Part shown: positions 2,570-59,166 of the stretch, one piece after another | Layout of the letters: each line of letters starts with the position of its first letter | Numbering within the stretch: the first letter of the stretch is position 1 | Assembly (NCBI RefSeq): GCF_025128055.1 | Contig: NZ_JAHLYS010000032.1 | Span: 1-64,000, forward strand | Origin: Synechococcus sp. CS-1329 | GTDB taxonomy: Bacteria; Cyanobacteriota; Cyanobacteriia; PCC-6307; Cyanobiaceae | DNA length: 64,000 nt | Direction: 5' to 3' | Program-made: the position numbers and the translations under genes | Notes under the pieces: model-generated | The model's input: only the letters and a program-made list of their open reading frames with translations | Databases searched by the model: none | What the model was told of the DNA's origin: nothing

Positions 2570-3796
2570 TCAGGCGCTGAGGGTCTGCAGGCTGGGGATG
2601 TCGCCCAGTTCGGGGATGGTCGCCATGCTCTCGGCGGAGAACATGCGACGGCCCTCCAGCTGCCAGTGCTCGTGCTGCTCCAGCAGCACCGCCCCCACCA
2701 GGCGTGTGATCGAGGCGTCGTTGGAGAAGATTCCAACGACGCGAGTGCGGCGTTTGATCTCCTCGTTCACCCGCTCCAGCAGATTGGTGCTCCAGATCTT
2801 GCGCCAGTGGTCCTTGGGGAAGTGGCGGAAGGCCAGCACGTCCTCCTTGGCCTCGTGCATGAGTGCAGTGGCCTTGGAGAAGCGCTCGGCCAGCGAGGCC
2901 GCCAGATCATCCCAGCGCGACTCGATCTCCTCAGCGGTTTCTTGGGCGAACACGCTGCGCAGGGCAGCGGTGACCATGCCCTGGTGGGCTTTGGGAACGC
3001 ACTGCAGCAGGTTGCGCGCAAAGTGGACCCGGCAGCGCTGCCACACGCTGCCCTGCAATTGCCTGCGGATCGCCTTGGTGAGGCCGCTGTGAGCGTCGGA
3101 GATAACCAGCTTGACGCCACTCAGGCCCCGCTCTTTGAGGTGGGCGATGAACTCCGCCCAGAAGGGCTCGCTCTCACTGTCGCCCACCTTGAGGCCCAGC
3201 AACTCCCGGCGGCCGTCCTCGTTCACCCCCATGGCGACGACGACAGCGCGGGAGCATACCTGCTGAGCCTTGCCCAGCCGGCCTTTGAGGTAGGTGGCAT
3301 CCAGGTAGACGTAGGCGTAGCTGTTGCTCTCCAGAGACCGGCCCAGGAATGCCTGCACCTGCTGGTCGATCTCCTGACAGATACGGCTCACCTGGGACTT
3401 GGAGATGCCGCTCTGGGAGCCCAGCGCCGCCACCAGGGCATCCACCTTGCGGGTGGAGACGCCACCGATGTAGGCCTCCATGATCACCGCATACAGGGCC
3501 TGATCGACGCGGCGGCGGGGCTCAAGGATCGAGGGCAGGAAGCTGCCGGCCCGCAGTTTTGGGATCTGCAGCGCGAGATCCCCCACCTGGGTGGTCAGGG
3601 TGCGGGGCCGGTAACCGTTGCGGTGGCCGAGACGCTCTTCCGTGCGCTCGTGCCAGTCCGCACCGAGGAAGGCGGCAAGCTCCAGCTCGATCAGCTGCTG
3701 CAGGCCGCGTGTGGCCAGTTCAGGGATCAGTTCACCTGCACTGCTGCCATCAAGTAGCGGCGCCAGGGAAGACGCGTCAAACTGTTGCTTGGGCAT
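2570..3796 (-). CDS. IS256-family transposase (Mutator-like, DDE)
   Basis: 408 residues, the usual length for the family. It has the typical N-terminal region (RGLQQLIELELAAFLGA, then RLGHRNGYRPRTL), a KSQVSRI helix, the catalytic core with YLDATYLKGR (first Asp), LVISDAHSGL (second Asp), QRCRVHFARNLL, and the C-terminal STNLLERVNEEIKRRTRVVGIF block that carries the catalytic Glu. No stop or frameshift is seen, so it may be active. The start at 3796 (MPKQQF) is preferred; the frame is open for 33 more codons upstream, but those residues read as non-coding. It moves DNA by cut-and-paste or copy-out via a circular intermediate. Confidence 0.92.
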   Translation of the reverse strand: MPKQQFDASSLAPLLDGSSAGELIPELATRGLQQLIELELAAFLGADWHERTEERLGHRNGYRPRTLTTQVGDLALQIPKLRAGSFLPSILEPRRRVDQALYAVIMEAYIGGVSTRKVDALVAALGSQSGISKSQVSRICQEIDQQVQAFLGRSLESNSYAYVYLDATYLKGRLGKAQQVCSRAVVVAMGVNEDGRRELLGLKVGDSESEPFWAEFIAHLKERGLSGVKLVISDAHSGLTKAIRRQLQGSVWQRCRVHFARNLLQCVPKAHQGMVTAALRSVFAQETAEEIESRWDDLAASLAERFSKATALMHEAKEDVLAFRHFPKDHWRKIWSTNLLERVNEEIKRRTRVVGIFSNDASITRLVGAVLLEQHEHWQLEGRRMFSAESMATIPELGDIPSLQTLSA

Positions 3797-3918
3797 GGTT
3801 CGTCTGGTTGAGGTGGTTCTCAAACCAGGGAAACGGGCCTGCCCACCCCTTGCAACGTCAGCCGTGGAGCCGATCGCCTGAGATGCGCGGCCCACCCCGG
3901 CTACGCCGGGGTGGGGAT

Positions 3919-4883: not shown

Positions 4884-5372
4884 ATGAACAAGCTTGCCAA
4901 GGATCGCTTCGGTGCTCATCAGCTCTGGGCTTCGATCGCCTCAACCCTCGCTGGCCTCACGCTGGCGGCCTGCATCCTGCTGGGCCTCGGCTTCCTGCCG
5001 GTGGCAGGGGCCGCCGCTGCAGCCTCAGTGCAGACGGCCGTGGCTGACTACCTCGTGTCCATGCCGGGGGACTACTACGCGATCGGCTCTGTAGCCGCCC
5101 TGAAGGACCTGATCGCCAGCCAGAATCCCCTTCTGATTGATGTGCGCAGCCCGAAGGAGTATCAGCAGGGCCACATCCCGGCCGCCATCAACCTCCCCCT
5201 CAACACACTTGAGCAACACCTCAAGACCCTTTCAACCGAGCAGGACATCGTTGTCTATTGCTCGACCGGCTACAGGTCAGCCATGGCCGTGATGGCCCTG
5301 CGGCTGCAGGGATTCGAGCATGTCAAGGGCTTCCCGCCAGGCTTTGCCGGCTGGACAGCGGCGCAGCGCTGA
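4884..5372 (+). CDS. Exported single-domain rhodanese
   Basis: 162 residues. A hydrophobic segment at about 18-45 ending AGAAAAAS looks like a signal peptide or an N-terminal anchor. The rhodanese fold follows (about 65-160): LLIDVRSPKEYQQGHIPAAINLPL, the active-site loop VVYCSTGYRS with Cys126, and GFPPGFAGW at the end. It would transfer sulfane sulfur in the periplasm or thylakoid lumen. It sits beside a sulfide-oxidation cluster and meets an unknown exported protein tail to tail (3 bases apart), so a role in handling extracytoplasmic persulfide or thiosulfate is likely but inferred. Confidence 0.85.
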   Translation: MNKLAKDRFGAHQLWASIASTLAGLTLAACILLGLGFLPVAGAAAAASVQTAVADYLVSMPGDYYAIGSVAALKDLIASQNPLLIDVRSPKEYQQGHIPAAINLPLNTLEQHLKTLSTEQDIVVYCSTGYRSAMAVMALRLQGFEHVKGFPPGFAGWTAAQR

Positions 5373-5375
5373 AGC

Positions 5376-5882
5376 TCAGGCCTGGTCGCTGCGGGGCTGA
5401 GCCATGCCCAGGGCATGCAGCTCCATCACCTGCTCGGGCCTGAGATCGAAGTCCAGAACCCCCTTGCTGCTGGCGATGGACAGGTGCAGGGGCAGGGCCT
5501 CGCTGGGCCTTGGCAGCAGGGCATCGAGATCAAACTGGGCCGATGCGCCCGGAACAGGTTTGCCATCCCTGGGCACCAGCTCCTCACTGCGATTGGGCAA
5601 CGACCACTCCTGACCCATCGAATCGCTCAGCAGCAGATCAGCCCCGTGATCGAGGCTCAAGTCGGCCTCCAGGGCGTTCAGGCGGATGCGCTGACCGGAG
5701 GGGTACTCCGGGAAGGGCTGCTCGAAAACCTGGGCGTTGAGGCGATGGCCGGCCCGATCACCGAGCGACCAGGGGTCTGCCGCCAAGGCCGGTGCGGCGG
5801 CCAGCAGGAACGCCAGCAGCAGCGGCAGCGCCCCAAGCAGGGATCGCCTCAGAAGCGCCGGAGGAGACTGATGGGATGACAT
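5376..5882 (-). CDS. Exported protein of unknown function beside sulfide genes
   Basis: 168 residues from the ATG at 5882 (MSSHQSPPALLRR); 14 further residues are possible upstream. A clear signal peptide (RRSLLGALPLLLAFLLAAAPALA, cleavage after ALA near residue 35) is followed by a soluble domain of about 130 residues containing DPWSLGDRAGHRL and a beta-rich stretch, with no cysteine anywhere. I do not recognise a family. It is transcribed divergently from the sulfide:quinone oxidoreductase gene, with about 195 bases between them, and converges on the exported rhodanese. Genomic position suggests a periplasmic accessory for sulfur chemistry or for electron transfer, but nothing in the sequence proves it. 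Confidence 0.65.
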   Translation of the reverse strand: MSSHQSPPALLRRSLLGALPLLLAFLLAAAPALAADPWSLGDRAGHRLNAQVFEQPFPEYPSGQRIRLNALEADLSLDHGADLLLSDSMGQEWSLPNRSEELVPRDGKPVPGASAQFDLDALLPRPSEALPLHLSIASSKGVLDFDLRPEQVMELHALGMAQPRSDQA

Positions 5883-6077
5883 GGCTAAATTGGCATTATG
5901 TCTTTTCAATACTAACGTGTCCATACGGCCATGGGGCGGGACGCGCCCGCTCTGACCGGATCCGCTGAGGTTGCTCGGCCTATTGGCCTATGGGTTTTCA
6001 CGCATCAACAAATGTCGTGTTCGCTACCGAGCAGCGGCCAACAGACCCAGAGTGGGCTCTGAGACTGCGGGGGAGAG

Positions 6078-7370
6078 ATGGGCGCAGACGCCTCCAGCGC
6101 AAGACATCACCAGGTGCTGATCGTGGGCGGAGGCTCCGCGGGGCTCACCGTGGCCGCCCAGCTGCTGCGGGCTCGCCCGGGCCTGGATGTGGCGATCCTC
6201 GAGCCCTCCAGCGTGCATGAGTACCAATCCGGCTGGATTCCGGCCGGCGCCGGGCTGCTGCCGATCGAGCAGACCCACCGCCCCGAGGCCAGCGTGATCC
6301 CGGCAGGCGCCCGCTGGATCCAGGACAGCGCCGCCCGCTTCGATCCAGCGGCCCAGCGGCTGATCACCGCCGCCGGTGACCAGCTCAGCTACGACGCGCT
6401 GGTGGTGGCCATGGGGCTCCAGCTCAACTGGAGCCGGATCAAGGGCCTGCCGGAGGCGCTCGGCAGCCACGGCATCGTCAGCAACTATTCCCATGCCCAC
6501 ATCGCCGCCACCTGGGCAGCGATCCGCGGCTTTCAAGGGGGGACCGCCCTGTTCACCCATCCCGCCACGCCGATCAAATGTGGCGGCGCGCCTCAGAAGG
6601 TGATGTACCTCGCCGACGACATCTTCCAGGCCACCAGCGGCGTGGGCGTGAACACCCGGGTGATCTTCTGCACCGCCATGGCTCAGCTCTATCCGGTCAA
6701 GGCCTACAACGCCACGGTCAAGCGCGTCGCGTCGCGCCGGGGGATCGAAACTCGGCTGCTCCACAACCTGATCGAGGTGCGCCCCGAGGAGCAGGTGGCG
6801 GTGTTTGAGGTCAGCGCCGAAGGTCAGCCGCCTCACACCGAGGAGATCCCCTTCGACCTGCTGCACGTGGTGCCGCCGATGGCAGCACCGGACGTGGTGG
6901 CCCGCAGCCCCCTGGCGATTGAGGGTCAGGGCGGCTGGGTGGAGGTGAACAAGCTCACCTGCCAGCACAAGCGTTTCGCTGATGTGTTCGCCCTCGGGGA
7001 TGTGAGTTCTCTGCCCACCTCCAAAAGCCTGGCCGCCGTGCGTGGCCAGGCGCCGGTGCTAGTGGCCAACCTGCTGGCGAAGTTGGATGGACAACCGCTG
7101 CTGTCCCGCTACGACGGCTACACGGCCTGCCCGCTGATCACCGGCTTCGGCAGCGTGGTGATGGCGGAGTTCGACTACGACCTCAAGCCGGTCAGCTCAT
7201 TCCTGGTGGATCCCACCAAGGAGCGCTGGAGCATGTGGCTGGTGGAAACCCGTGTGTTCCCCTGGATCTACTGGCACCGGGTGCTCAAGGGGCGGTTGCA
7301 CGAAGCGCCCGCACTGAAACCGTTCGCGCCGCTGGTGCGCTGGCTGGGGCTGGCGCTCAGGCAGGAGTGA
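6078..7370 (+). CDS. sqr: Sulfide:quinone oxidoreductase, SQOR-like type II
   Basis: FAD flavoprotein that oxidises sulfide to a sulfane sulfur (persulfide or polysulfide) and passes electrons to the plastoquinone pool. 430 residues. The first FAD Rossmann motif LIVGGGSAGL is at residues 14-23, the redox cysteines are Cys168 in PIKCGGAPQK and Cys351 in YTACPLITGFG, and the second FAD site is ADVFALGDVSSLPTSK. The PIKCGGAPQK context is that of the mitochondrial-type enzyme. C-terminal aromatic and hydrophobic residues (WIYWHRVLKG) probably attach it to the membrane. It heads the run with the persulfide dioxygenase 82 bases downstream. It is probably regulated by the ArsR protein encoded at 11078-11422. 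Confidence 0.93.
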   Translation: MGADASSARHHQVLIVGGGSAGLTVAAQLLRARPGLDVAILEPSSVHEYQSGWIPAGAGLLPIEQTHRPEASVIPAGARWIQDSAARFDPAAQRLITAAGDQLSYDALVVAMGLQLNWSRIKGLPEALGSHGIVSNYSHAHIAATWAAIRGFQGGTALFTHPATPIKCGGAPQKVMYLADDIFQATSGVGVNTRVIFCTAMAQLYPVKAYNATVKRVASRRGIETRLLHNLIEVRPEEQVAVFEVSAEGQPPHTEEIPFDLLHVVPPMAAPDVVARSPLAIEGQGGWVEVNKLTCQHKRFADVFALGDVSSLPTSKSLAAVRGQAPVLVANLLAKLDGQPLLSRYDGYTACPLITGFGSVVMAEFDYDLKPVSSFLVDPTKERWSMWLVETRVFPWIYWHRVLKGRLHEAPALKPFAPLVRWLGLALRQE

Positions 7371-7418
7371 TCAGGCCCGCGCCCGGCCTGATCACCCGTT
7401 GCCGATCCTCCCTATGCG

Positions 7419-7432
7419 GCTATGCTCATAGC
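7419..7432. promoter_or_regulatory. 14-bp palindrome upstream of the persulfide dioxygenase gene
   Basis: A perfect palindrome with 6-base arms (GCTATG, CATAGC) and a 2-base centre, ending 20 bases before the ATG of the dioxygenase gene in the sqr gap. Position and symmetry suit an operator for a dimeric repressor such as the clustered ArsR protein, but the same exact motif was not seen in front of sqr or of the repressor gene itself. The assignment is an inference. Confidence 0.3.
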
Positions 7433-7452
7433 AGTTATCGATCGAGGCCCCC

Positions 7453-8580
7453 ATGGTCGTCGCTCCTGCCAGTTCCTTCTGCCTCGCCGCCGCCGCCGGC
7501 GGAGCGCCGCTGCTCTTCCGCCAGCTCTTCGATGCCGACACCGGCACCTTCACCTACCTGATCGCCGAGGTGAGCAGCGGCCAGGCCCTGCTGATCGATT
7601 CGGTCTATGAGCAGCACGAGCGTGATCTCGCCCTGATCCAGGAACTGGGCCTCCAGCTGGTGGCCTGCCTCGACACCCACGCCCACGCCGACCACGTCAC
7701 CGGCAGCTGGCTGATGCATGCCGCCAGCGGCAGTGCCATCGCCCTGGCCGCCAGCGTCGGCGCCGAGAACGTGACCCTGCCCCTGCGGCACGGCGATCGG
7801 GTGGACTTCGGCGGCCGGGCGCTGGAGGTGCGCGCCACCCCCGGCCACACCGATGGCTGCCTCACCTTTGTGCTCGACGACCACAGCCTCGCCTTCAGCG
7901 GTGATGCCCTGCTGGTGCGGGGCTGCGGCCGCTGCGACTTCCAGCAGGGCAATGCCCGGACCCTCTACCACTCGATCACCGAGCAGATCCTGTCGCTGCC
8001 CGAGGGCTGCCTGCTCTATCCCGGCCACGACTACACCGGCCGCAGCGTCACCTCCGTGACCGAAGAGAAGGCCTACAACGCCCGCCTCGGCGGCCGCGCC
8101 ATCGAACGCGATTTCGTGATCTACATGCAGACCATGAAGCTGCCCCACCCCCACCGGATCGCCGAGGCCCTGCCGGCCAACATGCGCAGCGGCAAGCCCC
8201 GGGAGGGCGATGGCCATGGGGGGGCGGCCTGGGCACCCACCCGCCGCAGCTACGCCGGTCTGCCGGAGCTGGCCCCGGCCTGGGTGGCCGCCCACCGCGA
8301 GGAGATCAACCTGGTGGATGTGCGCTCGCCCCAGGAGTTTCAGGGACCCGATGGCCACATCCCCGGCAGCCTGCTGATTCCGCTGCCCGAGCTGGAGCAG
8401 CGGGCCGGCGAGATCCCATCAGACAGGCCCACCGTGGTGCTCTGCCATTCGGGCAGCCGCTCAGCCCTGGCCACCCAGCAACTGCTGCGGGCGGGTCACC
8501 GGCAGGTGGCCAACCTCCACGGCGGGCTGCTGAGCTGGCAGGCCGCCGGATATCCCCTGGTCAGCGTCACCCCCCTCTGA
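7453..8580 (+). CDS. Persulfide dioxygenase-rhodanese fusion
   Basis: 375 residues in two domains. Residues about 20-255 form an ETHE1-type metallo-beta-lactamase fold: THAHADH at 75-81, GHTDG at 131-135 (His132), SGDALL (Asp151) and YPGHDY supply the mononuclear iron ligands. Such enzymes oxidise glutathione persulfide to sulfite. Residues about 265-375 form a rhodanese domain with NLVDVRSPQEF and the loop LCHSGSRS (Cys331), able to move sulfur between sulfite, thiosulfate and persulfide. Fusing the two joins consecutive steps after sulfide:quinone oxidoreductase. The next gene begins 3 bases after the stop, so it belongs to the same transcript. Confidence 0.92.
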   Translation: MVVAPASSFCLAAAAGGAPLLFRQLFDADTGTFTYLIAEVSSGQALLIDSVYEQHERDLALIQELGLQLVACLDTHAHADHVTGSWLMHAASGSAIALAASVGAENVTLPLRHGDRVDFGGRALEVRATPGHTDGCLTFVLDDHSLAFSGDALLVRGCGRCDFQQGNARTLYHSITEQILSLPEGCLLYPGHDYTGRSVTSVTEEKAYNARLGGRAIERDFVIYMQTMKLPHPHRIAEALPANMRSGKPREGDGHGGAAWAPTRRSYAGLPELAPAWVAAHREEINLVDVRSPQEFQGPDGHIPGSLLIPLPELEQRAGEIPSDRPTVVLCHSGSRSALATQQLLRAGHRQVANLHGGLLSWQAAGYPLVSVTPL

Positions 8581-8583
8581 GCC

Positions 8584-9147
8584 ATGACATCCACCACCAA
8601 CACCGGCCCCAGCAACACCAGCCTCACCAGTGCCGGCCTCAGCCTCAGCCCTGAGCAACTCGCCGCCGAAATCGAGAGCGGCCGCATCAGCGTCATCGAT
8701 GTGCGGGAGCCGATGGAATACGTGGGCGGCCACATTGCCGGCAGCCACAACATTCCCCTCTCCCGCCTGGGCAGCAGCAGCCTCCCCGAGGGGCCCCTGG
8801 TGCTGGTCTGCCAGAGCGGCAACCGCAGCGAGCGGGGCCTGGCCACCCTGCTGCGTGGAGGCCACCCCCATCCCCTCGCCGACCTCGAAGGCGGCATGGG
8901 CGCCTGGCAGCAGGCGGGCCTGCCGATGAAGCGCCGCCAGGGCGCCCCCCTGCCGCTGATGCGTCAGGTGCAGATCGCCGCCGGCAGCCTGGTGCTGCTC
9001 GGGGTCTTCCTCAGCCAAACCGTGGCCCCGGGCTGGATCTGGCTGGCCGGCTTCGTGGGGGCCGGCCTCACCTTTGCCGGTGTCAGTGGCTTCTGCGGCA
9101 TGGCCCGCCTCCTGGCGGTGATGCCCTGGAACCGGGTGCGGGCGTGA
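8584..9147 (+). CDS. Membrane-anchored rhodanese (YgaP-like, rhodanese plus DUF2892)
   Basis: 187 residues. The rhodanese domain spans about 22-115 with SVIDVREPMEYVGGHI and the loop LVCQSGNRSERG (Cys76). The C-terminal 70 residues contain two hydrophobic helices separated by a short turn (AAGSLVLLGVFLSQ and WIWLAGFVGAGLTFAGVSGFCGMARLL), the DUF2892 arrangement of YgaP. It probably receives sulfane sulfur at the cytoplasmic membrane face. It overlaps the following exporter gene by 4 bases, and co-translation with it suggests functional coupling. Confidence 0.9.
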   Translation: MTSTTNTGPSNTSLTSAGLSLSPEQLAAEIESGRISVIDVREPMEYVGGHIAGSHNIPLSRLGSSSLPEGPLVLVCQSGNRSERGLATLLRGGHPHPLADLEGGMGAWQQAGLPMKRRQGAPLPLMRQVQIAAGSLVLLGVFLSQTVAPGWIWLAGFVGAGLTFAGVSGFCGMARLLAVMPWNRVRA

Positions 9148-9995
9148 TCATCGGCCTCAGCCTCGGCACGGCGGTGCTGCTGCTGGTCGGCGGTCTCCTG
9201 ATCGGCGCTCTGCTGGCGGTGCTGGGGGCCGGTGGCTCGATCCTGCTGTTGCCCCTGCTGGTGAGCGGAGCGGGTCTGCCCACCCGCGAGGCCGTGCCGC
9301 TCTCTCTGCTGGTGGTGACCCTGCTGGCCCTGGGCAATGTGGGGCCCTACGTCCGCCGGGGCCAGGTGGCCCTGCGACCGGCGCTGATCCTGGGGGTGCC
9401 GGCCCTGGCGGGCGCCTGGGTGGGCGGCAGCCTGGTGAAGGCCGATCTGATCCCTGAGGCGATGCAGCTGGGGGTGTTCACCGTGGCGGCCCTGGTGGCC
9501 TCCTGGCTGCTGACGCGGCCGCCGCAGCCGGCCCAGAGCCACCAGGCTCAGCCCAGCCCAAAGCCGGCTGGATCGCCCCAGGCCCTCGCAGCCCAGGGGG
9601 TGCTGGTGGGCCTGCTCACCGGCATTGCCGGCGTGGGCGGCGGCTTTGCGATCGTGCCCGCCCTGGTGCTGCTGGCCGGCCTGCCGATGCACCTGGCCAG
9701 CGGCACCAGCCTGCTGCTGATCAGCACCAACAGCCTGGTGGCCCTGCTGGCGCTGGGCCACTGGCCCGCCGCCAGCCTCGAGTTGATGCTGCCCCTGGTG
9801 GCCGGCGGCGCGGCCGGTGCCGTGCTGGGTCAGCGGCTGGCCCCCCACCTGAGCGAACGCCACCTGCGGCGCGGCTTCGCCGGCCTGCTGATCGGCTCGG
9901 CGCTGCTCACCGGCTTCGAGGGTCTGCGGCGCCAGCACCCAACCCCCATCAACCAGCACTCACCCCGTCCCCTGAGCAGCGAGCAGCAGCAATGA
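9144..9995 (+). CDS. TauE/SafE-family sulfite or organosulfur exporter
   Basis: 283 residues, mostly hydrophobic, with about eight membrane helices in two related halves, each opening with a glycine-rich motif (GALLAVLGAGGSILLLPLL near 14-32 and VGLLTGIAGVGGGFAIVPAL near 154-173). This is the TauE/SafE pattern of exporters for sulfite, sulfonates or thiosulfate. The start is a GTG overlapping the previous stop. In this context it plausibly removes sulfite or thiosulfate made by the dioxygenase-rhodanese fusion. The central loop (about 130-150) is rich in Pro, Gln and Ala. Confidence 0.88.
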   Translation: MIIGLSLGTAVLLLVGGLLIGALLAVLGAGGSILLLPLLVSGAGLPTREAVPLSLLVVTLLALGNVGPYVRRGQVALRPALILGVPALAGAWVGGSLVKADLIPEAMQLGVFTVAALVASWLLTRPPQPAQSHQAQPSPKPAGSPQALAAQGVLVGLLTGIAGVGGGFAIVPALVLLAGLPMHLASGTSLLLISTNSLVALLALGHWPAASLELMLPLVAGGAAGAVLGQRLAPHLSERHLRRGFAGLLIGSALLTGFEGLRRQHPTPINQHSPRPLSSEQQQ

Positions 9996-10438
9996 GCCAA
10001 CGCAGCTTCCAGTTCCGGCTGCACAGCAGCCACGCCGATCCCGACCGCGCCACCGGGGCCCTGGTGGTGGAGTTCCTGGCTGAATCAGGCCAGTGGCAGC
10101 CCCAGCATCCCAGCCTCAGCACGCCGGGGTTCCGGCTCTACCTGCTGTCGTTGCTGCTCTGTCAGCACACCTATCTGGTGGCCAATGCTCTGGAGCGCTC
10201 CATTCCTCTCCAGCGGGTGGAGGGATCCTTCACCGTGCTCACCAGCACTGAGTGGATCATCGAGCAGCTCGAGGGCACCTTCGTGATGCACCTGGATCCG
10301 GCCGCAGCGGTGGCCGAGCGCTCGCGGGCCGACGCGGACGCCATCGCGTTCATCAGCGAGCGGATGAAGCTCTGTCCGGTGTCACGCAACCTGCCGGCCA
10401 CGGTGATCAAAACGATCGGTCTGCGCCTGGGCGCCTGA
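9992..10438 (+). CDS. OsmC/Ohr-family thiol protein
   Basis: 148 residues. Two conserved cysteines are visible: Cys57 in LLLCQHTYLVANALER on the central helix and Cys128 in RMKLCPVSRNLP, the CPVS motif of the OsmC fold. These proteins reduce organic peroxides, and some act on persulfides or polysulfides. Its start overlaps the exporter stop (ATGA), so it is the last gene of the sqr-dioxygenase-rhodanese-exporter run. A role in clearing reactive sulfur species is inferred from that position. Confidence 0.75.
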   Translation: MSQRSFQFRLHSSHADPDRATGALVVEFLAESGQWQPQHPSLSTPGFRLYLLSLLLCQHTYLVANALERSIPLQRVEGSFTVLTSTEWIIEQLEGTFVMHLDPAAAVAERSRADADAIAFISERMKLCPVSRNLPATVIKTIGLRLGA

Positions 10439-10441
10439 GCC

Positions 10442-11005
10442 TCAGAGCGGCTCTGGATCGCTGGGGCCGCGGCGCCAGTCGAGCCAGATCAGGTGGGGCA
10501 CGATCGCCGACGTCACCCTGCGGTAGGCGGGGTAATCGGAGTGGGCGGCGCAGAGGCGCACCTCCTCGCGGCGGGCCTTGCCGCCCAGCACCAGCGCCAG
10601 GGCCAGCAGCAGGGCCAGGTGCAGCAGGCTGCCCCGCGCCAGGGCCACCCCCAGGGAGCAGATCAGCAGCGATTGATAGAGAGGGTGACGGCAGCGGCCG
10701 TAGGCCCCGGCCGTCACCAGGGGCGCACCGGGCATGGGCTCAGGCAGGGGGCTGAGGCTGCCGCCCAGGTTGAGCGCGCCCTGGCCGGCCAGCAGCAGAC
10801 CGGCGGCGAAGAGGCTCAGGCCCAGCACCCGACACAGGGGCGGCCAGCTGAGACCAAAAGCGGCGGGACTGGGGAAGGCCGGCAGCAGATGGGCGCTGAT
10901 CAGGACCATCTGGGCCATCAGCCACCATTCGCCATGGCGGTTGTCGAGCAGACCAGCCCAGCTGAAACCCCAGGCCTGAAGGCGTTGCGGCAACGACCTG
11001 TCCAT
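10442..11005 (-). CDS. Isoprenylcysteine carboxyl-methyltransferase-family membrane protein
   Basis: 187 residues from the ATG at 11005; an upstream in-frame start would add 12. Four to five hydrophobic helices are followed by the family signature TAGAYGRCRHPLYQS (about 125-139) and a later cluster with EEVRLCAAHSDYPAYRR, the S-adenosylmethionine-binding half of ICMT/PEMT-like proteins. The substrate is unknown, and bacterial members act on varied thiol or lipid substrates. It converges tail to tail on the OsmC gene and follows the ArsR gene on the same strand with a 72-base gap. Confidence 0.75.
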   Translation of the reverse strand: MDRSLPQRLQAWGFSWAGLLDNRHGEWWLMAQMVLISAHLLPAFPSPAAFGLSWPPLCRVLGLSLFAAGLLLAGQGALNLGGSLSPLPEPMPGAPLVTAGAYGRCRHPLYQSLLICSLGVALARGSLLHLALLLALALVLGGKARREEVRLCAAHSDYPAYRRVTSAIVPHLIWLDWRRGPSDPEPL

Positions 11006-11077
11006 GGGCTGCGGTGCGATGGATGGGCCCAGTCTGGCCACGGCAGAGCACGGCGACCGCCGACCACGATCAGCGGC

Positions 11078-11422
11078 TCAGGCGGCCTGCAGCTGCAGAA
11101 GCTGGGCTTCGAGCCGCTGCCTCAGGCGCCCCTGCACCAGGGTGCAGAGCTCCTCCACCAGCTCGTCATCGGCGGTGTAGATCAGGCGGGAGCCTTCGCG
11201 CTGGCAGTGCACCAGACCGGCCCGCTGCAGCTGCCCCAGCTGGCGGCTGATGTGCGACTGGCTGAACCCGGTGGCCTGAATCAGGCTGGTGACATCAAGG
11301 GGCTCCGAGCGCAGCAGGCAGAGCAGCTGCAACCGGGCCGGTTCGCTCAGCAGCCGGAAGAAGCGACTGATTTCCTCCATCAGCTCAGGGCTAGGCCTGG
11401 CCCCATCTGCGGAAGCGCCCAT
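11078..11422 (-). CDS. ArsR-family repressor, SqrR/BigR-like candidate
   Basis: 114 residues. A winged helix-turn-helix is clear: RFFRLLSEPARLQLLCLL, the recognition segment GFSQSHISRQLGQL and the wing VHCQREGSRLIYT. Three cysteines are present (Cys35, Cys73, Cys93). In the related sulfide sensors SqrR and BigR, a cysteine on helix 2 and one on the last helix form a tetrasulfide link on meeting persulfide and release DNA. Cys35 and Cys93 sit in comparable places, so a persulfide-sensing repressor is likely. It lies at the end of the sulfide module with a leader containing an A/T-rich patch (about 11430-11455). Confidence 0.8.
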   Translation of the reverse strand: MGASADGARPSPELMEEISRFFRLLSEPARLQLLCLLRSEPLDVTSLIQATGFSQSHISRQLGQLQRAGLVHCQREGSRLIYTADDELVEELCTLVQGRLRQRLEAQLLQLQAA

Positions 11423-11491
11423 GTCAGACCTTGAACAATCCTGTAATTATGCCGCCTCACGCATGACCCTGGGGCGGCCCTGGCGGCGGGC

Positions 11492-19084: not shown

Positions 19085-21553
19085 ATGAATCCAGCAGATC
19101 AACGCCCTGGGCTGAATGGGATATTGGACGATCTGAACATTCAGCAACTGCAGGACAAGCTGAAGTCTTCAGCGGAAGGGCTCAGCCAGAGTGAGGCTGT
19201 GCGGCGCTTGACAGAGTATGGCAGAAACGAGCTTGCCGACAAGAAGACGAATCAGATTCTGAAGTTTTTTACCTATTTCTGGGGTCCAATTCCCTGGATG
19301 ATTGAAGCAGCCGTAATTCTTTCTGCGCTGGCCCAGCATTGGCCCGACTTCGCCATCATCCTGGTGCTGCTGCTTGCCAACGCCGTGGTTGGTTTCTGGG
19401 AAGAGCACCAGGCTGGCAATGCCATCGCTGCACTGAAAGCCAAGCTAGCCATGAAGGCACAGGTCAAACGCGATGGCCAGTGGACCACTGTGGAGTCACG
19501 CGAACTGGTGCCCGGCGACGTGATCCATGTCCGCCTCGGTGACATCGTGCCGGCGGATGCGCGGCTGCTGGATGGTGATCCGCTGCAAGTGGATCAGTCG
19601 GCCCTGACGGGTGAATCGTTGCCGGCCACGCGCCGATGCGGTGAAGCACTGTTCTCGGGATCGATCATTCGCCGGGGTGAGATCGATGCGATGGTCTATG
19701 CCACAGGCGCGAACACGTTCTTCGGCAAAACAGCGGAGTTGGTGCAGGTTGCTCACAGCGTCAGCCATTTCCAACAAGCCGTTCTGAAGATCGGAAATGT
19801 GCTGATCCTCCTGGCGCTTGCGTTAGTCACGGTGATCATTGCCGTGGCGCTGCTGCGCGGCGACCCCCTGCTCACCACTCTTCAGTTTGCCCTGGTGTTG
19901 ACCGTTGCCGCGATTCCCGTGGCGATGCCCACGGTGCTCTCAGTGACCATGGCTGTGGGGGCACGCCAGTTGACGAGAAAAGGGGCCATCGTGACGCGGT
20001 TGGCGGCGATCGAGGAATTGGCTGGAGTGGATGTGCTCTGCTCGGACAAAACCGGCACACTGACCCAAAACACTCTGACACTTGGCGATCCCTTCAGCGT
20101 GGATTCATCGGGCGATGACAGTGGTCAGGGTCGGGTGATCTTTGCTGCAGCCCTGGCGTCGCGAGCTGACAACAAGGATCCGATCGACCGGGCTGTGCTT
20201 GACGGCCTGAGTGATGGCCAGAGCCTTGATGGCTACCAAGTGGTTCATTTCCAGCCCTTTGACCCGGTGCATAAGCGAACCGAAGCCACCGTCAGGGGAC
20301 TGGACGGACTGGACTTCAAGGTCACTAAGGGTGCTCCGCAAGTGATTGTGGCGTTGTCGGCCAATGGTGCCCAGGTGAAGACCGCCGTCGAGAGCGCGAT
20401 CAACGGGTTTGCTGCCCGGGGCTTTCGCTCCCTGGGAGTGGCCCGCATGGATGCAGAAGACCACTGGCAGTTTCTTGGTGTCTTGCCCCTGTTTGATCCT
20501 CCCCGCGAGGAAGCCAAAACGACCATCGCAACAGCTCGCGAGATGGGCGTGAAGGTCAAGATGGTGACAGGTGATCAATTACCGATCGCTCAGGAAACAG
20601 CCAAGAAACTGGGGATGGGCTCTTTGATCCTCGATGCCAGTGGCTTCGGGACCACGACGACCCAGCCGTCGGAGCTGTTGGCGGAGTCCATCGAGAAGGC
20701 GGATGGCTTTGCCCAGGTGTTTCCTGAGCACAAGTATCAGATTGTGGATGTCCTCCAGCGGCACGGCCACATCGTCGGCATGACCGGGGATGGGGTCAAT
20801 GATGCTCCAGCGCTGAAAAAGGCAGACTGCGGCATCGCCGTTGCGGAGGCAACGGATGCGGCGCGTAGCGCGGCCTCCATCGTCTTGATGGAGCCGGGTC
20901 TATCCGTGATCATTCATGCGATCAAGACAAGTCGCAAAATCTTCCAACGAATGAACAGCTATGCGATCTATCGCATAGCTGAAACGCTGCGCGTCTTACT
21001 GTTCATGGCAGGGTCGATTCTGGCCTTCAACTTCTACCCGGTGACAGCGGCCATGATCGTGATGCTGGCGCTGCTCAATGATGGCGCCATCCTATCAATC
21101 GCTTATGACAATGTGCATTATAACAACGAACCAGAGCGCTGGAACATGCGTGTCGTAATGGGAGTTGCCGGCGTACTGGGCGTCATCGGAGTTATCTCAG
21201 CATTTGGCTTGTTTCTTCTCGGAGAACGCATCTTCCAGCTGGACCGCTCTCATATTCAGACATTGATGTATCTGAAGCTCTCCGTGGCAGGCCATCTGAC
21301 CATCTTCCTGACACGGACCCGTGGGCCCTTCTGGTCGATACGGCCATCACGGGTTCTGCTGTTGGCGGTCTGCGGAACGCAACTGCTGGCGACCTTGATC
21401 GCGGTCTACGGGTGGTTCATGCCCCCGCTGGGATGGGGTTGGGCCCTATTTGTCTGGGGTTATGCCCTGGCCTGGTTCCTGATCAACGACCGACTGAAAG
21501 TCTTGACCTACTGGATCCTGCAGCCGAAGCGAGCCGATGGCGGGAATCCCTAG
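19085..21553 (+). CDS. P3A-type plasma-membrane proton-exporting ATPase
   Basis: 822 residues, typical of archaeal and bacterial P3A pumps. Order: cation-ATPase N domain (LSQSEAVRRLTEYGRNEL), actuator loop with ALTGESLPATR, phosphorylation site VLCSDKTGTLTQNT (Asp is phosphorylated), nucleotide-binding KVTKGAPQVI, hinge MVTGDQLPIAQETA and MTGDGVNDAPALKKADCGIAVAEATDAA, then several C-terminal helices. The short C terminus lacks the long regulatory tail of plant enzymes. It would export H+ using ATP, helping pH homeostasis. Codon use is less G/C-biased than in neighbours, which fits lateral acquisition together with the DUF302 gene. Its stop overlaps that of comEC by 4 bases. Confidence 0.92.
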   Translation: MNPADQRPGLNGILDDLNIQQLQDKLKSSAEGLSQSEAVRRLTEYGRNELADKKTNQILKFFTYFWGPIPWMIEAAVILSALAQHWPDFAIILVLLLANAVVGFWEEHQAGNAIAALKAKLAMKAQVKRDGQWTTVESRELVPGDVIHVRLGDIVPADARLLDGDPLQVDQSALTGESLPATRRCGEALFSGSIIRRGEIDAMVYATGANTFFGKTAELVQVAHSVSHFQQAVLKIGNVLILLALALVTVIIAVALLRGDPLLTTLQFALVLTVAAIPVAMPTVLSVTMAVGARQLTRKGAIVTRLAAIEELAGVDVLCSDKTGTLTQNTLTLGDPFSVDSSGDDSGQGRVIFAAALASRADNKDPIDRAVLDGLSDGQSLDGYQVVHFQPFDPVHKRTEATVRGLDGLDFKVTKGAPQVIVALSANGAQVKTAVESAINGFAARGFRSLGVARMDAEDHWQFLGVLPLFDPPREEAKTTIATAREMGVKVKMVTGDQLPIAQETAKKLGMGSLILDASGFGTTTTQPSELLAESIEKADGFAQVFPEHKYQIVDVLQRHGHIVGMTGDGVNDAPALKKADCGIAVAEATDAARSAASIVLMEPGLSVIIHAIKTSRKIFQRMNSYAIYRIAETLRVLLFMAGSILAFNFYPVTAAMIVMLALLNDGAILSIAYDNVHYNNEPERWNMRVVMGVAGVLGVIGVISAFGLFLLGERIFQLDRSHIQTLMYLKLSVAGHLTIFLTRTRGPFWSIRPSRVLLLAVCGTQLLATLIAVYGWFMPPLGWGWALFVWGYALAWFLINDRLKVLTYWILQPKRADGGNP

Positions 21554-53869: not shown

Positions 53870-54340
53870 ATGGCCACCGCCAGTGCCCCCTTTGCGGCCC
53901 TCGAGCCCCTGCTGCGGCGTCACCACGGCCGCGCCGATGCCCTGATCGAGGTGCTCCACGGCGCCCAGCAGTGCTACGGCCACCTCAGCGATCCGCTGCT
54001 GCGTCACGTGGCGGCGCGTCTGCAGCTGCCCCTCAGCCGGGTGAAGGGAACCGCCAGCTTTTACCACCTCTTCCGCTTCCAGCCGCCGGCCCGCCACCGC
54101 TGCGTGGTCTGCACCGGTACCGCCTGCCAGATCCAAGGGGCCCCGGCCCTGGTCGCCGCCATGGAGGAGGGCCTGGGGCTGAAGCTGGGCGCCAGGCGCG
54201 GGGATGGCTGGGCGAGCCTCTCGGAGGTGCGCTGCCTGGGCACCTGCAGCGACGCGCCCCTGGTGCAGATCGATGACAGCATCGGCCGCCAGCAGACCGT
54301 CGCCGGCCTGCGCCGCTGGCTGCAGGAGCTGGAGCCATGA
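53870..54340 (+). CDS. hoxE: Bidirectional hydrogenase subunit HoxE
   Basis: 156 residues, similar to NuoE. A helical N-terminal part (CYGHLSDPLLRHVAARLQLPLSRVKGTASFYHLF) is followed by a 2Fe-2S thioredoxin-like domain with Cys in VCTGTACQIQG and RCLGTCSDAP (C-x4-C and C-x3-C). It is part of the diaphorase module that exchanges electrons between the NiFe hydrogenase and NAD(P)H or ferredoxin/flavodoxin. It is first in the hox operon; hoxF starts inside its stop (ATGA). Confidence 0.95.
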   Translation: MATASAPFAALEPLLRRHHGRADALIEVLHGAQQCYGHLSDPLLRHVAARLQLPLSRVKGTASFYHLFRFQPPARHRCVVCTGTACQIQGAPALVAAMEEGLGLKLGARRGDGWASLSEVRCLGTCSDAPLVQIDDSIGRQQTVAGLRRWLQELEP

Positions 54341-55917
54341 CCGGCCTGCGCTGCTGCGCTTCAGCGGGCTGCCTGGCCCGAGGCTCCGGCGCCTTGATGG
54401 GGGTCCTCGAAACGGCCATCTCCAGAGGCGAACTGGGGGACCAGATCCAGCTGCGACCGGTGGGCTGCCTGGGCCCCTGCAGCCAGGGCCCCCTGCTTGC
54501 CCTCGATCCCGATGGCGATCTCTATGCCGGTGTGGACCCGCAGGACGCCGAAACCCTGGTGGCCGCTCTGGCCCGGCGGCTGCATCAGAGCTCTGACCAG
54601 GCGACGCCCCTGGAGTGGGCCCCCGCCAGAGGCGAGCGCCTGGATCTCAGAGCGCCGTTCTTCCAGCGGCAACGGCGAATCGTGCTGGAGCACTGCGGTC
54701 TGATCGATCCCACCGACCTGGAGCAGGCGATCGCCGTGGGGGCCTACGGCCAGCTGGAGCGGGTGCTGCAGAGCTGGAGCCCGGAGCAGGTGGTGACGGA
54801 ACTGCAGCGCAGCGGCCTGCGCGGCCGTGGCGGCGCCGGCTATCCCACCGGTCTGAAATGGGCCACCGTGGCCCGCATGCCCGGGGCCCGCAAGGTGGTG
54901 GTCTGCAACGCCGATGAAGGCGATCCCGGCGCCTTCATGGACCGCGCCGTGCTGGAAGGCGATCCCCATCGGGTGCTGGAGGGAATGGCGATCGCCGCTT
55001 ATGCGGTGGGGGCCGACCACGGGTTCATCTACATCCGCGCCGAATACGAGCTGGCGATCGAGAGGCTGCGCCTGGCGATCGAGCAGGCCGTAGACCGGGG
55101 CCGGCTCGGGGCGGCGCTGTTCGGCACGGGTTTCGGCTTCACGCTGGAGCTGCGGGTGGGGGCCGGCGCCTATGTCTGCGGCGAGGAAACGGCACTGATC
55201 GCCTCGATCGAGGGCAAACGTGGCACGCCGCGCCCCAGGCCCCCCTATCCCGCTGAGCTCGGCGTGGGCGGGAGACCCACCCTGATCAACAACGTCGAGA
55301 CCTTCGCCAACGTGGCGCCGATCCTGCGGGAAGGCGCCGACTGGTTCGCCGCCATCGGCACCGCCGGCAGCAGCGGCACCAAGGTGTTCAGCCTCACCGG
55401 CCACGTGCGCCGCGGCGGCCTGGTGGAAGTGCCGATGGGCACCAGCCTGGCCACGGTCGTGCTGGAGATGGGCGAGGGCAGCCCGCACGGCTCCGCCGTC
55501 AAAGCGGTGCAGACCGGCGGACCGTCCGGGGGCTGCGTGCCGGCCGATCGGCTCGACACCCGACTCGACTACGAAAGCCTCCAGTCCCTGGGCACGATCA
55601 TGGGTTCCGGCGGCATGGTGGTGCTGGATCAGAACACCGACATGGTGGCTCTGGCCGCCTATTTCATGGCCTTCTGCCGTGAGGAGTCGTGCGGCAAGTG
55701 CGTGCCGTGCCGCGCCGGCACCGTGCAGCTCCACGGGCTGCTGGAGAAGATCCTGGCTGGCCAAGCCAGCCAGGCCGACCTCGATCAGCTCGAAACCCTC
55801 GGGGCGATGGTGATGGACACCAGCCTCTGCGGCCTGGGCCAGAGCGCTCCCAAGCCGATGCTGAGCACCCTGCGCTACTTCCGTGGCGACTACCTCGCCC
55901 GGCTGGGGGCGCCATGA
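54337..55917 (+). CDS. hoxF: Bidirectional hydrogenase diaphorase subunit HoxF
   Basis: 526 residues. N-terminal thioredoxin-like 2Fe-2S half (CCASAGCLARGSG, VGCLGPCSQGPLL), then the NuoF fold: GLRGRGGAGYPTGLKW (NADH-binding loop), VCNADEGDPGAFMDR (FMN), YVCGEETALIASIEGKRGTPRPRPPYPAELG and the 4Fe-4S site EESCGKCVPCRAGT with a fourth Cys at SLCGLGQ. It oxidises or reduces NAD(P)H. It overlaps hoxE and hoxU by 4 bases each, indicating stoichiometric synthesis. Confidence 0.97.
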   Translation: MTGLRCCASAGCLARGSGALMGVLETAISRGELGDQIQLRPVGCLGPCSQGPLLALDPDGDLYAGVDPQDAETLVAALARRLHQSSDQATPLEWAPARGERLDLRAPFFQRQRRIVLEHCGLIDPTDLEQAIAVGAYGQLERVLQSWSPEQVVTELQRSGLRGRGGAGYPTGLKWATVARMPGARKVVVCNADEGDPGAFMDRAVLEGDPHRVLEGMAIAAYAVGADHGFIYIRAEYELAIERLRLAIEQAVDRGRLGAALFGTGFGFTLELRVGAGAYVCGEETALIASIEGKRGTPRPRPPYPAELGVGGRPTLINNVETFANVAPILREGADWFAAIGTAGSSGTKVFSLTGHVRRGGLVEVPMGTSLATVVLEMGEGSPHGSAVKAVQTGGPSGGCVPADRLDTRLDYESLQSLGTIMGSGGMVVLDQNTDMVALAAYFMAFCREESCGKCVPCRAGTVQLHGLLEKILAGQASQADLDQLETLGAMVMDTSLCGLGQSAPKPMLSTLRYFRGDYLARLGAP

Positions 55918-56630
55918 GCGTGCGCACCCTGCGCATCGACGGCCGCGACGTGGCCAGCGCCGATGGCGCCACGGTGCTGGAGGCCGCGCGCGTCGCCGGC
56001 GTGGCCATCCCCACCCTCTGCCACCTGGAGGGGCTCTCGCCCGTGGCCGCCTGCCGCCTCTGCCTGGTGGAGATCGAGGGCAGCCCCAAACTCCAGCCGG
56101 CCTGCATCACCCCGGTGAGCGAGGGCCTGGTGGTGCACACCGCCACTCCCCGCCTCAGGGAGATCCGGCGGACCGTGATCGAGCTGCTGTTCACCGAGGG
56201 CAACCATGTCTGCTCGGTCTGCGTAGCCAACGGCCATTGCGAACTGCAGGACCGCGCCGTGGAAGTGGGCATGGACCACGCCCGCCTGCCCTACCGCTTC
56301 CCTGATCGCCCCGTCGACCTCTCCCACCCGCGCTTCGGGCTCGACCACAACCGCTGCATCCTCTGCAGCCGCTGCGTGCGCGTCTGCGACGAGGTGGAGG
56401 GAGCCCACGTCTGGGACGTGGCCTGGCGGGGGGAGCACTGCCGGATCATCGCCGGACTCGATCAGCCCTGGGGCTCCGTGGATGCCTGCACCGACTGCGG
56501 CAAGTGCGTCATGGTCTGCCCCACCGGCGCCCTGTTCCACAAGGGCGACAGCGAGGGGGAGAAGCACGAGGATCCCAGCCGGCTGGCGGCCCTGCAGAGG
56601 GCCCGCCATGCCCGCCAGGAGGCCCCATGA
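55914..56630 (+). CDS. hoxU: Bidirectional hydrogenase subunit HoxU
   Basis: 238 residues. N-terminal 2Fe-2S domain (IPTLCHLEGLSPVAACRLCLVE, Cys, then PACITPV), a NuoG-like H-Cx3-C region (FTEGNHVCSVCVANGHCELQ) and a two-cluster ferredoxin-type region (NRCILCSRCVRVCDE and DACTDCGKCVMVCPTGALF). It carries electrons between HoxF and HoxY. The start is placed at 55914, inside the hoxF stop. Confidence 0.96.
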   Translation: MSVRTLRIDGRDVASADGATVLEAARVAGVAIPTLCHLEGLSPVAACRLCLVEIEGSPKLQPACITPVSEGLVVHTATPRLREIRRTVIELLFTEGNHVCSVCVANGHCELQDRAVEVGMDHARLPYRFPDRPVDLSHPRFGLDHNRCILCSRCVRVCDEVEGAHVWDVAWRGEHCRIIAGLDQPWGSVDACTDCGKCVMVCPTGALFHKGDSEGEKHEDPSRLAALQRARHARQEAP

Positions 56631-57193
56631 GCCAACCCGCGAAGCTGCCGAAGCTGCGTCTGGCCACGGTCTGGCTGGCGGGTTGCTCCGGCTGCCACAT
56701 GTCGTTCCTGGATCTCGACGAGTGGCTGATCGAGCTGGCGCCGCGCATCGAGATGGTCTTCTCGCCGATCGCCTCCGACACCAAGACCTACCCCGAAGAC
56801 GTGGATGTGGCCCTGGTGGAGGGGGGCGTGGGCAACAGCGACAACCTGGCCCTGATCCACCAGGTGCGCCAGCGCACCCGCCTGCTGGTGTCCTTCGGCG
56901 ACTGCGCCATCACCGCCAACGTGCCGGGCCTGCGCAACCCGCTCGCAGGTCCGGCCGCCGTACTGGATCGCTCCTACCTGGAGCTGGCCGACGGCAGCGC
57001 CCAGTGGCCCCACGCTCCGGGCCTGGTGCCCGAGCTGCTGGAGCGGGTGCTGCCGGTGCACGAGCTGGTGCCGGTGGATCTGTTTCTGCCGGGTTGCCCC
57101 CCGCCGGCCGAGCGCATCCGCGCCGTGCTGGAGGCCCTGCTGCGGGGCGAGCAGCCGCTGATGGAGGGGGCGGAGATGATCCGCTTCGGCTGA
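56627..57193 (+). CDS. hoxY: NiFe hydrogenase small subunit HoxY
   Basis: 188 residues. Short small subunit with one proximal 4Fe-4S site: WLAGCSGCHMSFLD (first two Cys), VSFGDCAIT (Cys) and LPGCPPPAERI (Cys). The family lacks the long Tat leader, so the enzyme stays in the cytoplasm. It overlaps hoxU by 4 bases (ATGA). Confidence 0.96.
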   Translation: MSQPAKLPKLRLATVWLAGCSGCHMSFLDLDEWLIELAPRIEMVFSPIASDTKTYPEDVDVALVEGGVGNSDNLALIHQVRQRTRLLVSFGDCAITANVPGLRNPLAGPAAVLDRSYLELADGSAQWPHAPGLVPELLERVLPVHELVPVDLFLPGCPPPAERIRAVLEALLRGEQPLMEGAEMIRFG

Positions 57194-57196
57194 ACC

Positions 57197-58675
57197 ATGA
57201 CCCGCACGATCCTGATCGATCCGGTCACCCGCATCGAAGGCCACGCCAAGATCTCCATCCACCTCGATGCCGGCGGCGCTGTGACCGGCGCCCACTTCCA
57301 TGTGGGTGAATTCCGCGGCTTCGAGGCCTTTTGCGTCGGGCGGCCCTTCAGCGAGATGGCCGCGATCACGGCGCGCATCTGTGGCATCTGCCCGGTGAGC
57401 CACCTGCTGGCCGCGGCCAAGACCGGCGACCAGCTGCTGGTGGTCACGATTCCGCCGGCGGCGGAGCGGCTGCGGAGGCTGATGAACCTGGCCCAGATCA
57501 TCCAGTCGCACGCGCTCTCCTTCTTTCACCTCAGCAGCCCCGATTTCCTGCTGGGCTGGGACAGCGACCCGGCCCAGCACAATGTCTTCGGGCTGATCGC
57601 CGCCAATCCCGAGCTGGCCCGCGGCGGCATCCGTCTGCGCCAGTTCGGCCAGGCGGTGATCGAGCGGCTGGGGGGGCGCAAGATCCATCCGGCCTGGGCG
57701 GTGCCCGGAGGCGTGCGCAGCCCGCTGCAGCCCGATGACCGCGACTGGATCCGCTCACGCCTGAGCGAGGCCGTCGCCACCACCCGCGGCGCCCTCGATC
57801 TGTTCAAACGCCTGCTGGATGGGCCGCTGGCGGCGGAAGCCTCTGTGTTCGGCGACTTTCCCTCCCTGTTCATGGGGCTGGTGGGGCCGGATGGCCTGTG
57901 GGAGCATTACGGCGGCCGCCTGCGCCTGATCGACAGCACAGGCGCACTGGTGACGGCCGAGCTGCCGGCCGATGGTCTCAGCGCCGAGCAGCTGGGCGGC
58001 CTGCTGGCCGAAGCGGTGGACCCCTCCACCTACCTGAAGTTCCCCTATTACAAACCGCTGGGCCCTGAAGCGGGCAGCTACCGGGTGGGGCCGCTGGCCC
58101 GCCTCAACGTCTGCGAGCGCATCGGCCACGAGCAGGCCGACCGGGAGCTGCTGGAGCTGCGCCAGCGCGGCGGCCGGGTGGTCACCAGCTCATTTCTGTA
58201 TCACCAGGCCCGGCTGATCGAGATCCTCGCCGCCCTCGAAGCGATCGAAGCCCTGCTCGACGATCCCGCCCTGTGCGACCCCCATGTGCGCGCCCACGCC
58301 GGGGTGAATGCCCGCGAAGCGGTGGGCGTGAGCGAAGCGCCGCGCGGCACGCTTTTTCACCACTACCGCGTCGATTCAGACGGCCTGATCGAAGCGGTGA
58401 ACCTGATCATCGCCACCGGCCAGAACAACCGGGCGATGAACCGCACGATCACCCAGATCGCCCGCCACTTCATCCAGGCGGGTCCTGCCGAAGGCAGGGG
58501 CGCCGCAGCCGATCTGCCGGAGATCAGCGAGGGTCTGCTCAACCGGGTGGAGGCGGGCATCCGCTGCTTCGATCCCTGCCTGTCGTGCTCCACCCATGCC
58601 GCCGGCCAGATGCCCTTGCATGTGCAGTTGATCGGCCCTGAGGGGGAGCTGCTGCGCGAGCGCTGGCGGGATTGA
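57197..58675 (+). CDS. hoxH: NiFe hydrogenase large subunit HoxH
   Basis: 492 residues. Contains the two CxxC motifs that bind the NiFe centre: [10 protein letters not shown] near residue 63 and [10 protein letters not shown] near the C terminus. The ending after the SCSTH motif (about 25 residues, [10 protein letters not shown] to RWRD) is the extension removed by HoxW. It reversibly splits or forms H2. Start 3 bases after the hoxY stop, with hoxW overlapping the end (TTGA). Confidence 0.97.
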
Positions 58676-59166
58676 GCCCTTCAGCGCGGCAGCGGCGGCA
58701 GCGGCACCTCGATCTGCTGATCGGCTGGGGCAACAGCCTCAGGCAGGACGACGGAGTGGGCCTCGCCATTGCCGAGCAGGTGCAGGGTTGGGGCCGGCCA
58801 GGGCTCAAAGTGCTGGCCATCCCCCAGCTCACGCCGGAGCTGGCACCACAGCTGGCGGCCGCGGACAGGGTCCTGTTCGTGGACGCGGTCCTGGCACCGG
58901 CCTGCCCGTCCCCAGGCTGGCGGCTGGAGCCGCTGGACACCTCAACGCAGGCCGTCAGGGCTGCTGGCGCCGGGCCTCTGAGCCACCACGCCAGCCCCGG
59001 CGCCCTGCTGCAGCTGAGCGGCTGCCTCTACGGCCGCACTCCTCCCGCCTGGCAGCTGCTGGTGCGCGCCCACTGCTGTGAGCTGGGGACGGAGCTCAGT
59101 GCCGCCACTGCCGCCCTGCTGCCCGAGGTGCTGGTGGCGGTGGGGCTCTGGTGCGGTGATGCATGA
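58672..59166 (+). CDS. hoxW: Hydrogenase maturation protease HoxW
   Basis: 164 residues from TTG at 58672. The HycI/HoxW signature [13 protein letters not shown] (Asp ligand to nickel), VLFVDAVL and the later SHHASPGAL His are in place. It clips the C-terminal extension of HoxH after nickel insertion. The translation start overlaps the hoxH stop. Confidence 0.9.

Follow-up and report, generated by a model that had tools for sequence, protein, structure and literature searches.

How do cyanobacteria switch on the oxidation of sulfide, and why does sqr, the gene for sulfide:quinone oxidoreductase (SQR), so often adjoin arsR and low-oxygen psbA genes? Grim and Dick (2016) left both questions open (PMC5061849). 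Here, we consider a locus of Synechococcus sp. CS-1329 that bears on how the switch might work. The window that we analyzed is a 64-kb stretch of contig C31 of the 2.58-Mb genome, and coordinates without a label refer to this window. Positions 4884–11422 contain genes for a rhodanese, SQR, a persulfide dioxygenase-rhodanese fusion (PDO), a YgaP-like rhodanese, a TauE/SafE transporter, an OsmC-fold protein, and an ArsR-family repressor. A previous reading from the sequence alone (the sequence-only reading) described these genes as a module that detoxifies or exploits sulfide, with persulfide-controlled expression. The pathway is already known; what is new is its likely control by an operator that is common to sqr, pdo, and arsR. 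Overall, we consider it quite probable that these genes make up a regulated module for sulfide detoxification in a picocyanobacterium, in which ArsR and its operator control two transcription units. Among the records returned, the nearest named relatives of the host are Cyanobium and Synechococcus (very close records were possibly left out).

An inverted repeat with the core ATG-N10-CAT is found upstream of sqr, pdo, and arsR. The candidate ArsR operator upstream of pdo, TATGCGGCTATGCTCATAGCAG (7413–7434, plus strand), was identified by footprinting and with a position weight matrix (PWM), and a form of TATGCGgcTATggTCATAgcAG is present upstream of pdo in 43/43 of the arsR-pdo intergenic regions of the family. 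With the matrix for the pdo operator, the site at 7413–7434 scores 37.6, as compared to 12.4 for the next-best site in the 64 kb and 14.8 for the best of 20 shuffles. This first matrix, which was derived from pdo sites, identified no site upstream of the window's sqr or arsR. However, an alignment of the promoters from 17 window-type sqr genes shows TATGCGT-N4-ACGCATnAA, which has the same ATG-N10-CAT geometry (it is degenerate in G106). A PWM built from the sqr promoters of 14 relatives has its top match in the window at 5988–6010 (27.3 versus 13.8 for the next best in the 64 kb; the maximum from 100 shuffles was 18.4). This is the candidate operator upstream of sqr, CTATGGGTTTTCACGCATCAACA (plus strand). 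The second-best match of the sqr-operator matrix in the 64 kb is at 11447, upstream of arsR. There, conservation at the locus points to a candidate autoregulatory operator, TCATGCGTGAGGCGGCATAATTA (11444–11466, minus strand): six genomes retain the site TCATGCGTGAnnCGGCATAAT at this locus even though their flanking sequences mostly differ. The strict site is present in all three promoters of the window, versus 0.03 expected, and none of 5,000 shuffles had all three (0/5000).

The linkage of arsR to these genes is also conserved. We tallied gene neighborhoods across 300 genomes of the family and found arsR directly upstream of pdo, and divergent from it, in 52 genomes, with a gap of mostly 100–275 bp. 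The OsmC gene is downstream of pdo in 39/59 copies. Ten of the 17 intact window-type sqr genes have a convergent arsR 12–58 bp downstream, and when the same contig also carries pdo after sqr, the distance from sqr to the start of pdo is usually about 500 bp. These tallies imply a standard layout of sqr> <arsR pdo>ygaP>tauE>osmC>. Because the same neighbors recur in tens of genomes, the clustering is not due to chance. Together, the shared operator and the divergent arsR suggest that ArsR is likely an autoregulated repressor that acts on both sqr and the pdo operon, via binding to the predicted operators.

In the genome as a whole, TATG-N10-CATA occurs at three places. One of these is a perfect palindrome, TATGCGAT-CT-ATCGCATA, within a P-type ATPase gene (20960–20977). 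The pdo-type operator also turns up elsewhere in relatives. In G003, a strong copy (25.7; L028:1876–1897) separates cydA, a gene for cytochrome bd, from a DUF3122 gene, and in G007 a weaker one (10.4; L050:12008) is upstream of cydA. The regulon may include cytochrome bd in such relatives. A search of the host's own genome for cydA gave no match; no control search was run, and the gene is likely absent. We also considered an operator upstream of the low-oxygen (D1') psbA on contig C47, but the only match was weak (C47:8326, near DUF3122), so we do not claim it.

Are sqr and pdo transcribed together? The gap between them is just 82 bp, and it contains a hairpin that the sequence-only reading did not bring up: an inverted-repeat scan identified a perfect 11-bp repeat that overlaps the stop codon of sqr (7367–7395, plus strand; RNA fold z –2.1) and is likely a terminator or an attenuator. 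It has no T run, so it is not a terminator by the T-run rule, and read-through from sqr to pdo is possible. Just downstream, we read a candidate pdo promoter, TTGCCG-16-TATGCT (7399–7426, plus strand). Its putative –10 box, TATGCT (7421–7426), is inside the operator, which is the arrangement that would be expected for repression. Given the hairpin and the promoter-operator between the two genes, sqr and pdo-ygaP-tauE-osmC are probably separate transcription units under the same operator and one repressor. A single co-transcribed run that includes sqr, as in the sequence-only reading, thus finds no support.

What might ArsR sense? The protein (11078–11422, minus strand) is above the cut-off for NCBIfam's HTH_metalloreg and has three cysteines, Cys35, Cys73, and Cys93, all of which are conserved in orthologs. 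Our initial expectation was a sensor of the SqrR/BigR type. Cys35, which is part of the RLxLLC segment, does align with C31 of E. coli YgaV, the first sensor cysteine. But the second sensor cysteine of SqrR, BigR, and YgaV, which is close to the end of the last helix, is missing: C98 of YgaV aligns with a residue other than cysteine, and we rejected that assignment. The conserved Cys93 is eight residues, or about two helical turns, before the C98 position, which gives a spacing of 58 residues from Cys35 instead of the 66 of published sensors (Cys50/Cys116; PMC12423496). Similarly, the match to the SqrR/BigR family (NF040642) is 39.9 bits versus 155, below the curated cut-off. ArsR also lacks the vicinal pair of RexT, a cyanobacterial H2O2-sensing ArsR with Cys40-Cys41 (PMC8960804), as its single Cys35 is preceded by leucine. 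So, the proposal that persulfide controls expression does not carry over with the known mechanism. Sensing of sulfane sulfur by ArsR seems plausible from the conserved residues, but it would require a different pair of cysteines.

The locus has a mixed ancestry. In six genomes (G007:C22, G006, G003:C5, G001, G002, and G008), the corresponding chromosomal site (pdxH ... pdo-ygaP-tauE ...) does not contain sqr; in the first five of these, the PEMT-like gene and arsR follow as they do in the window. DNA similarity to the loci without sqr covers pdxH (4.2–4.86 kb) and resumes at 7412–7413. The segment 6077/6105–7373 matches DNA from the sqr loci in G007:C25, G004, and G003:C17. The proteins agree with this division. 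SQR is 84–89% identical to the proteins from those sqr loci, while PDO and the OsmC-fold protein are just 73–77% and 62–64% identical to the copies at the sqr loci, versus 89–93% for the genes of the C22 type. In the SQR tree, the window's protein joins the G007_C25 and G003_C17 type; in the PDO tree, it groups with the loci that lack sqr, outside of a well-supported clade that holds G007_C25 and G003_C17. These discordant trees and identities show that sqr and pdo have different histories here. By these comparisons, the locus is a mosaic, with an sqr like that of one ancestral locus and a pdo-arsR like that of another; either sqr was inserted here or it was lost from the sister loci. We had also considered that arsR was displaced from the gap between sqr and pdo, but the comparison shows that this arsR is native to the locus, while the arsR paralog that lies next to sqr in relatives is absent.

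The locus that corresponds to the window has broken genes for D1' psbA, a Tll0287-like protein, and a rhodanese in G007:C22 (L180:3855–5173 and 7582–7707) and in G006 (L181), which suggests that a sulfide/low-oxygen island is decaying in sister strains. The window also encodes a Mutator-family transposase (2570–3895), and a 93% identical copy (L027:10642–11952) lies roughly 2 kb away from the module's truncated pdo in G004.

All seven of the genes that were named in the sequence-only reading are real open reading frames that match their families, and the four touching plus-strand genes are those for PDO, YgaP, TauE, and OsmC (gaps of +3, –4, and –4 bp). SQR (6078–7370, plus strand) is of type II. 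The SQR tree agrees, and the closest solved protein is human SQOR (E about 1e-105, versus 1e-18 for flavocytochrome c and 1e-8 for the 3hyv-type SQR); type I SQR is more distant. The redox cysteines C168 and C351 (in KC-GGAPQ and CPLITG) align with those of human SQOR and are invariant in 8 homologs. PDO (7453–8580, plus strand) has an N-terminal metallo-beta-lactamase domain and a C-terminal rhodanese domain (Pfam Lactamase_B and Rhodanese). Its closest solved protein is BpPRF (E 1e-116 over 351 residues, the whole length), and the metal site (THAHADH, H132, D151) and the rhodanese loop (CHSGSRS) are invariant. The YgaP-like rhodanese (8584–9147, plus strand; Pfam Rhodanese and YgaP-like_TM) has a two-helix membrane anchor. 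The TauE/SafE protein (9144–9995, plus strand; Pfam TauE 1.8e-42) scores 146 bits versus a gathering score of 32.6. It is a candidate exporter of sulfite or thiosulfate, but these substrates are a guess from the family as a whole.

The last protein of the operon (9992–10438, plus strand) is below Pfam's gathering score for OsmC (15.9 versus 27.5 bits). Its AlphaFold2 (AF2) model has a predicted local distance difference test score (pLDDT) of 78 from a three-sequence alignment. The best match is to 1ml8 (VIA Z 9.9, root-mean-square deviation 2.3 over 94 residues), and OsmC/Ohr-like entries occupy ranks 1–14 of the structure search. With partial coverage and so few sequences, we have moderate confidence in the predicted OsmC fold. 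Cys57, in helix 47–68, and Cys128, before the C-terminal helix, are invariant in three homologs.

The remaining genes of the interval are the first rhodanese gene, which the sequence-only reading had named, and two minus-strand genes, which it had omitted. The single-domain rhodanese (4884–5372, plus strand; Pfam Rhodanese 1.4e-21) has an N-terminal hydrophobic segment and may be exported or membrane-anchored. Its active-site loop, CSTGYR, is retained in relatives, and in G007:C25 and G112 there is linkage between this gene and sqr. Between the rhodanese and SQR genes is a DUF3122 gene (5376–5924, minus strand; Pfam DUF3122 2.4e-6), whose product also has an N-terminal hydrophobic segment. Genes for DUF3122 proteins recur as neighbors of sqr, D1' psbA, and cyd genes (L026, L028, L038, L049, L052). 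The predicted fold is mostly beta, and a structure comparison gave no match in the PDB with E below 0.001. After osmC comes the gene for a membrane protein similar to PEMT or isoprenylcysteine methyltransferase (10442–11041, minus strand; Pfam PEMT 2.3e-6), which is syntenic at this locus in five genus members, then arsR, and then phoX. As for psbA, copies near sqr with the D1' signature (Ala80, Leu158, Ala286) are found in G007 (L026:11049–12128), G004 (L027:74–1153), G031 (L038:5543), and Oscillatoria HE19RPO (L088:11555). In G007 and G004, the psbA is followed by genes for DUF4079 and a Tll0287-like heme protein. The host's own D1' psbA (C47:6010–7086), with this set, is on a different contig from the window. 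About 45 kb from the module, the window has genes similar to those of bidirectional [NiFe] hydrogenase (54337–59166; HoxF-, HoxY-, and HoxH-like, with a likely maturation protease).

We propose that SQR would oxidize H2S at the membrane, with plastoquinone as the electron acceptor and a low-molecular-weight thiol as the acceptor of the sulfane sulfur. PDO would then use O2 to oxidize the persulfide to sulfite. The rhodanese domain of PDO, the YgaP-like protein, and the exported rhodanese would transfer sulfane sulfur and could form thiosulfate, and TauE would export the product. The OsmC-fold protein might be a thiol-dependent peroxidase or a persulfide-handling enzyme. Without a signal, ArsR would occupy the operators over the –10 box of pdo and upstream of sqr and arsR, and would repress all three; a thiol-reactive signal, most likely sulfane sulfur, would release it.

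Some observations weigh against this account. As described above, ArsR does not have the second sensor cysteine of SqrR, BigR, and YgaV. The window's sqr operator has a change in one half-site (ATGGGT for ATGCGT). Also, the genome encodes a second type II SQR, on contig C21, which is 65% identical to the window's SQR. This type is found in 9/9 of the genus members searched, versus 4/9 for the window type. It is not linked to the module, and promoters of its type lack the operator (it is absent from those of five genus-mates). The C21 enzyme may be responsible for housekeeping sulfide oxidation. Both SQRs are in one picocyanobacterial clade within a cyanobacterial type II clade, so nothing points to a recent transfer from another phylum. 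Finally, sqr of Synechococcus sp. PCC 7002 is down-regulated by polysulfide (PMC12466478). This implies that sqr and pdo need not be induced together and that the two units may differ.

Other explanations need to be weighed as well. ArsR could be primarily a sensor of arsenite, or of another metalloid or metal, as was argued for Synechocystis SuoR. Arsenite would then induce sqr and pdo, and sulfide oxidation would be linked to arsenic. ArsR does belong to the ArsR/SmtB family, one of its three cysteines is in the helix-turn-helix and another is in the last helix, and cyanobacterial sqr-arsR pairs have been tied to arsenite (PMC5061849, PMC11304991). However, we found no gene for an arsenic transporter, reductase, or methylase among the neighbors in the window or in those modules of relatives whose open reading frames were listed, and the copies of the operator that we found mostly precede sulfur, DUF3122, and cyd genes, so this seems unlikely. 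We are more skeptical still that the repeat is bound by another regulator, such as a low-oxygen or redox factor, while ArsR controls something else. Binding of ArsR to the repeat is a prediction, and the element is also found between cydA and DUF3122 in G003, but the site precedes the arsR genes at both loci as well, and ArsR is the only regulator that we found linked to these genes, in tens of genomes.

Another possibility is that sqr and the four genes downstream form one operon from the sqr promoter, with the hairpin being neutral. The shared strand, the short gap, and the lack of a T run would fit. The conserved promoter-operator immediately 5' of pdo, the perfect hairpin across the stop codon of sqr, and the convergent arsR between sqr and pdo in other genomes all argue for two units, and we would give the single operon perhaps one chance in four. 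Somewhat less probable is that the module serves anoxygenic photosynthesis, by gaining electrons, rather than detoxification. PCC 7002 is reported to perform anoxygenic photosynthesis (PMC12466478), and sqr adjoins the D1' psbA in several relatives. But this genome has its D1' psbA on another contig, and PDO requires O2. Also, type II SQR is usually associated with detoxification.

Returning to ArsR control of two units, we are evenly divided about a broader proposal: that picocyanobacteria have a sulfide regulon that had not been described before, in which an autoregulated ArsR with the Cys35 and Cys93 geometry controls sqr and pdo-ygaP-tauE-osmC via ATG-N10-CAT, along with DUF3122 and possibly cytochrome bd in relatives, and that the set was re-assembled here from two ancestral loci. 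Neither the operator nor the Cys35/Cys93 arrangement was reported in the literature searched, which did not extend to most subscription journals and is no proof of novelty. With a short conserved operator, and a repressor without the usual persulfide-sensing dithiol, the question of the sulfide switch becomes directly testable in picocyanobacteria (polysulfide versus arsenite).

It's useful to compare the module to known systems. The inventory of SQR, PDO-rhodanese, rhodanese, and TauE is the same as in the cst operon of S. aureus (CstR-TauE-CstA-CstB-SQR), whose regulator is of the CsoR family. BpPRF from Burkholderia phytofirmans has the same two domains as PDO, in the same order, but in a different organism and operon. 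Another known system is that of PCC 7002, whose SQR and PDO, also cyanobacterial, oxidize sulfide to sulfite and thiosulfate (PMC7042703) and where polysulfide induces pdo, rhod, and tauE (PMC12466478, 2025). In contrast, the genes here belong to a picocyanobacterium, share an operator, and include a linked arsR and a gene for an OsmC-fold protein.

Previous papers had already described both the arsR-sqr-tauE neighborhood and the occurrence of sqr close to low-oxygen psbA (PMC5061849, PMC11304991), and tauE and arsR adjoin many type II sqr genes (PMC11304991). Such clusters from other cyanobacteria (L042, L060, L061, L065, L066) also have a type II sqr, pdo, ygaP, tauE, and arsR, and some have D1' psbA and cyd in the vicinity. 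We found no convincing copy of the operator in these five loci. Their ArsR proteins are 33–35% identical to the window's; in these distant cyanobacteria, the Cys35 and Cys93 positions are shared, and an additional cysteine four residues on forms a C-x3-C in the last helix. Finally, SqrR, BigR, YgaV, and HlyU have the ArsR fold, control rhodanese, PDO, or SQR genes, and share the first sensor cysteine (C31 of YgaV is C35 here); they differ from the window's ArsR at the second, in place of which it has the conserved C93, eight residues earlier.

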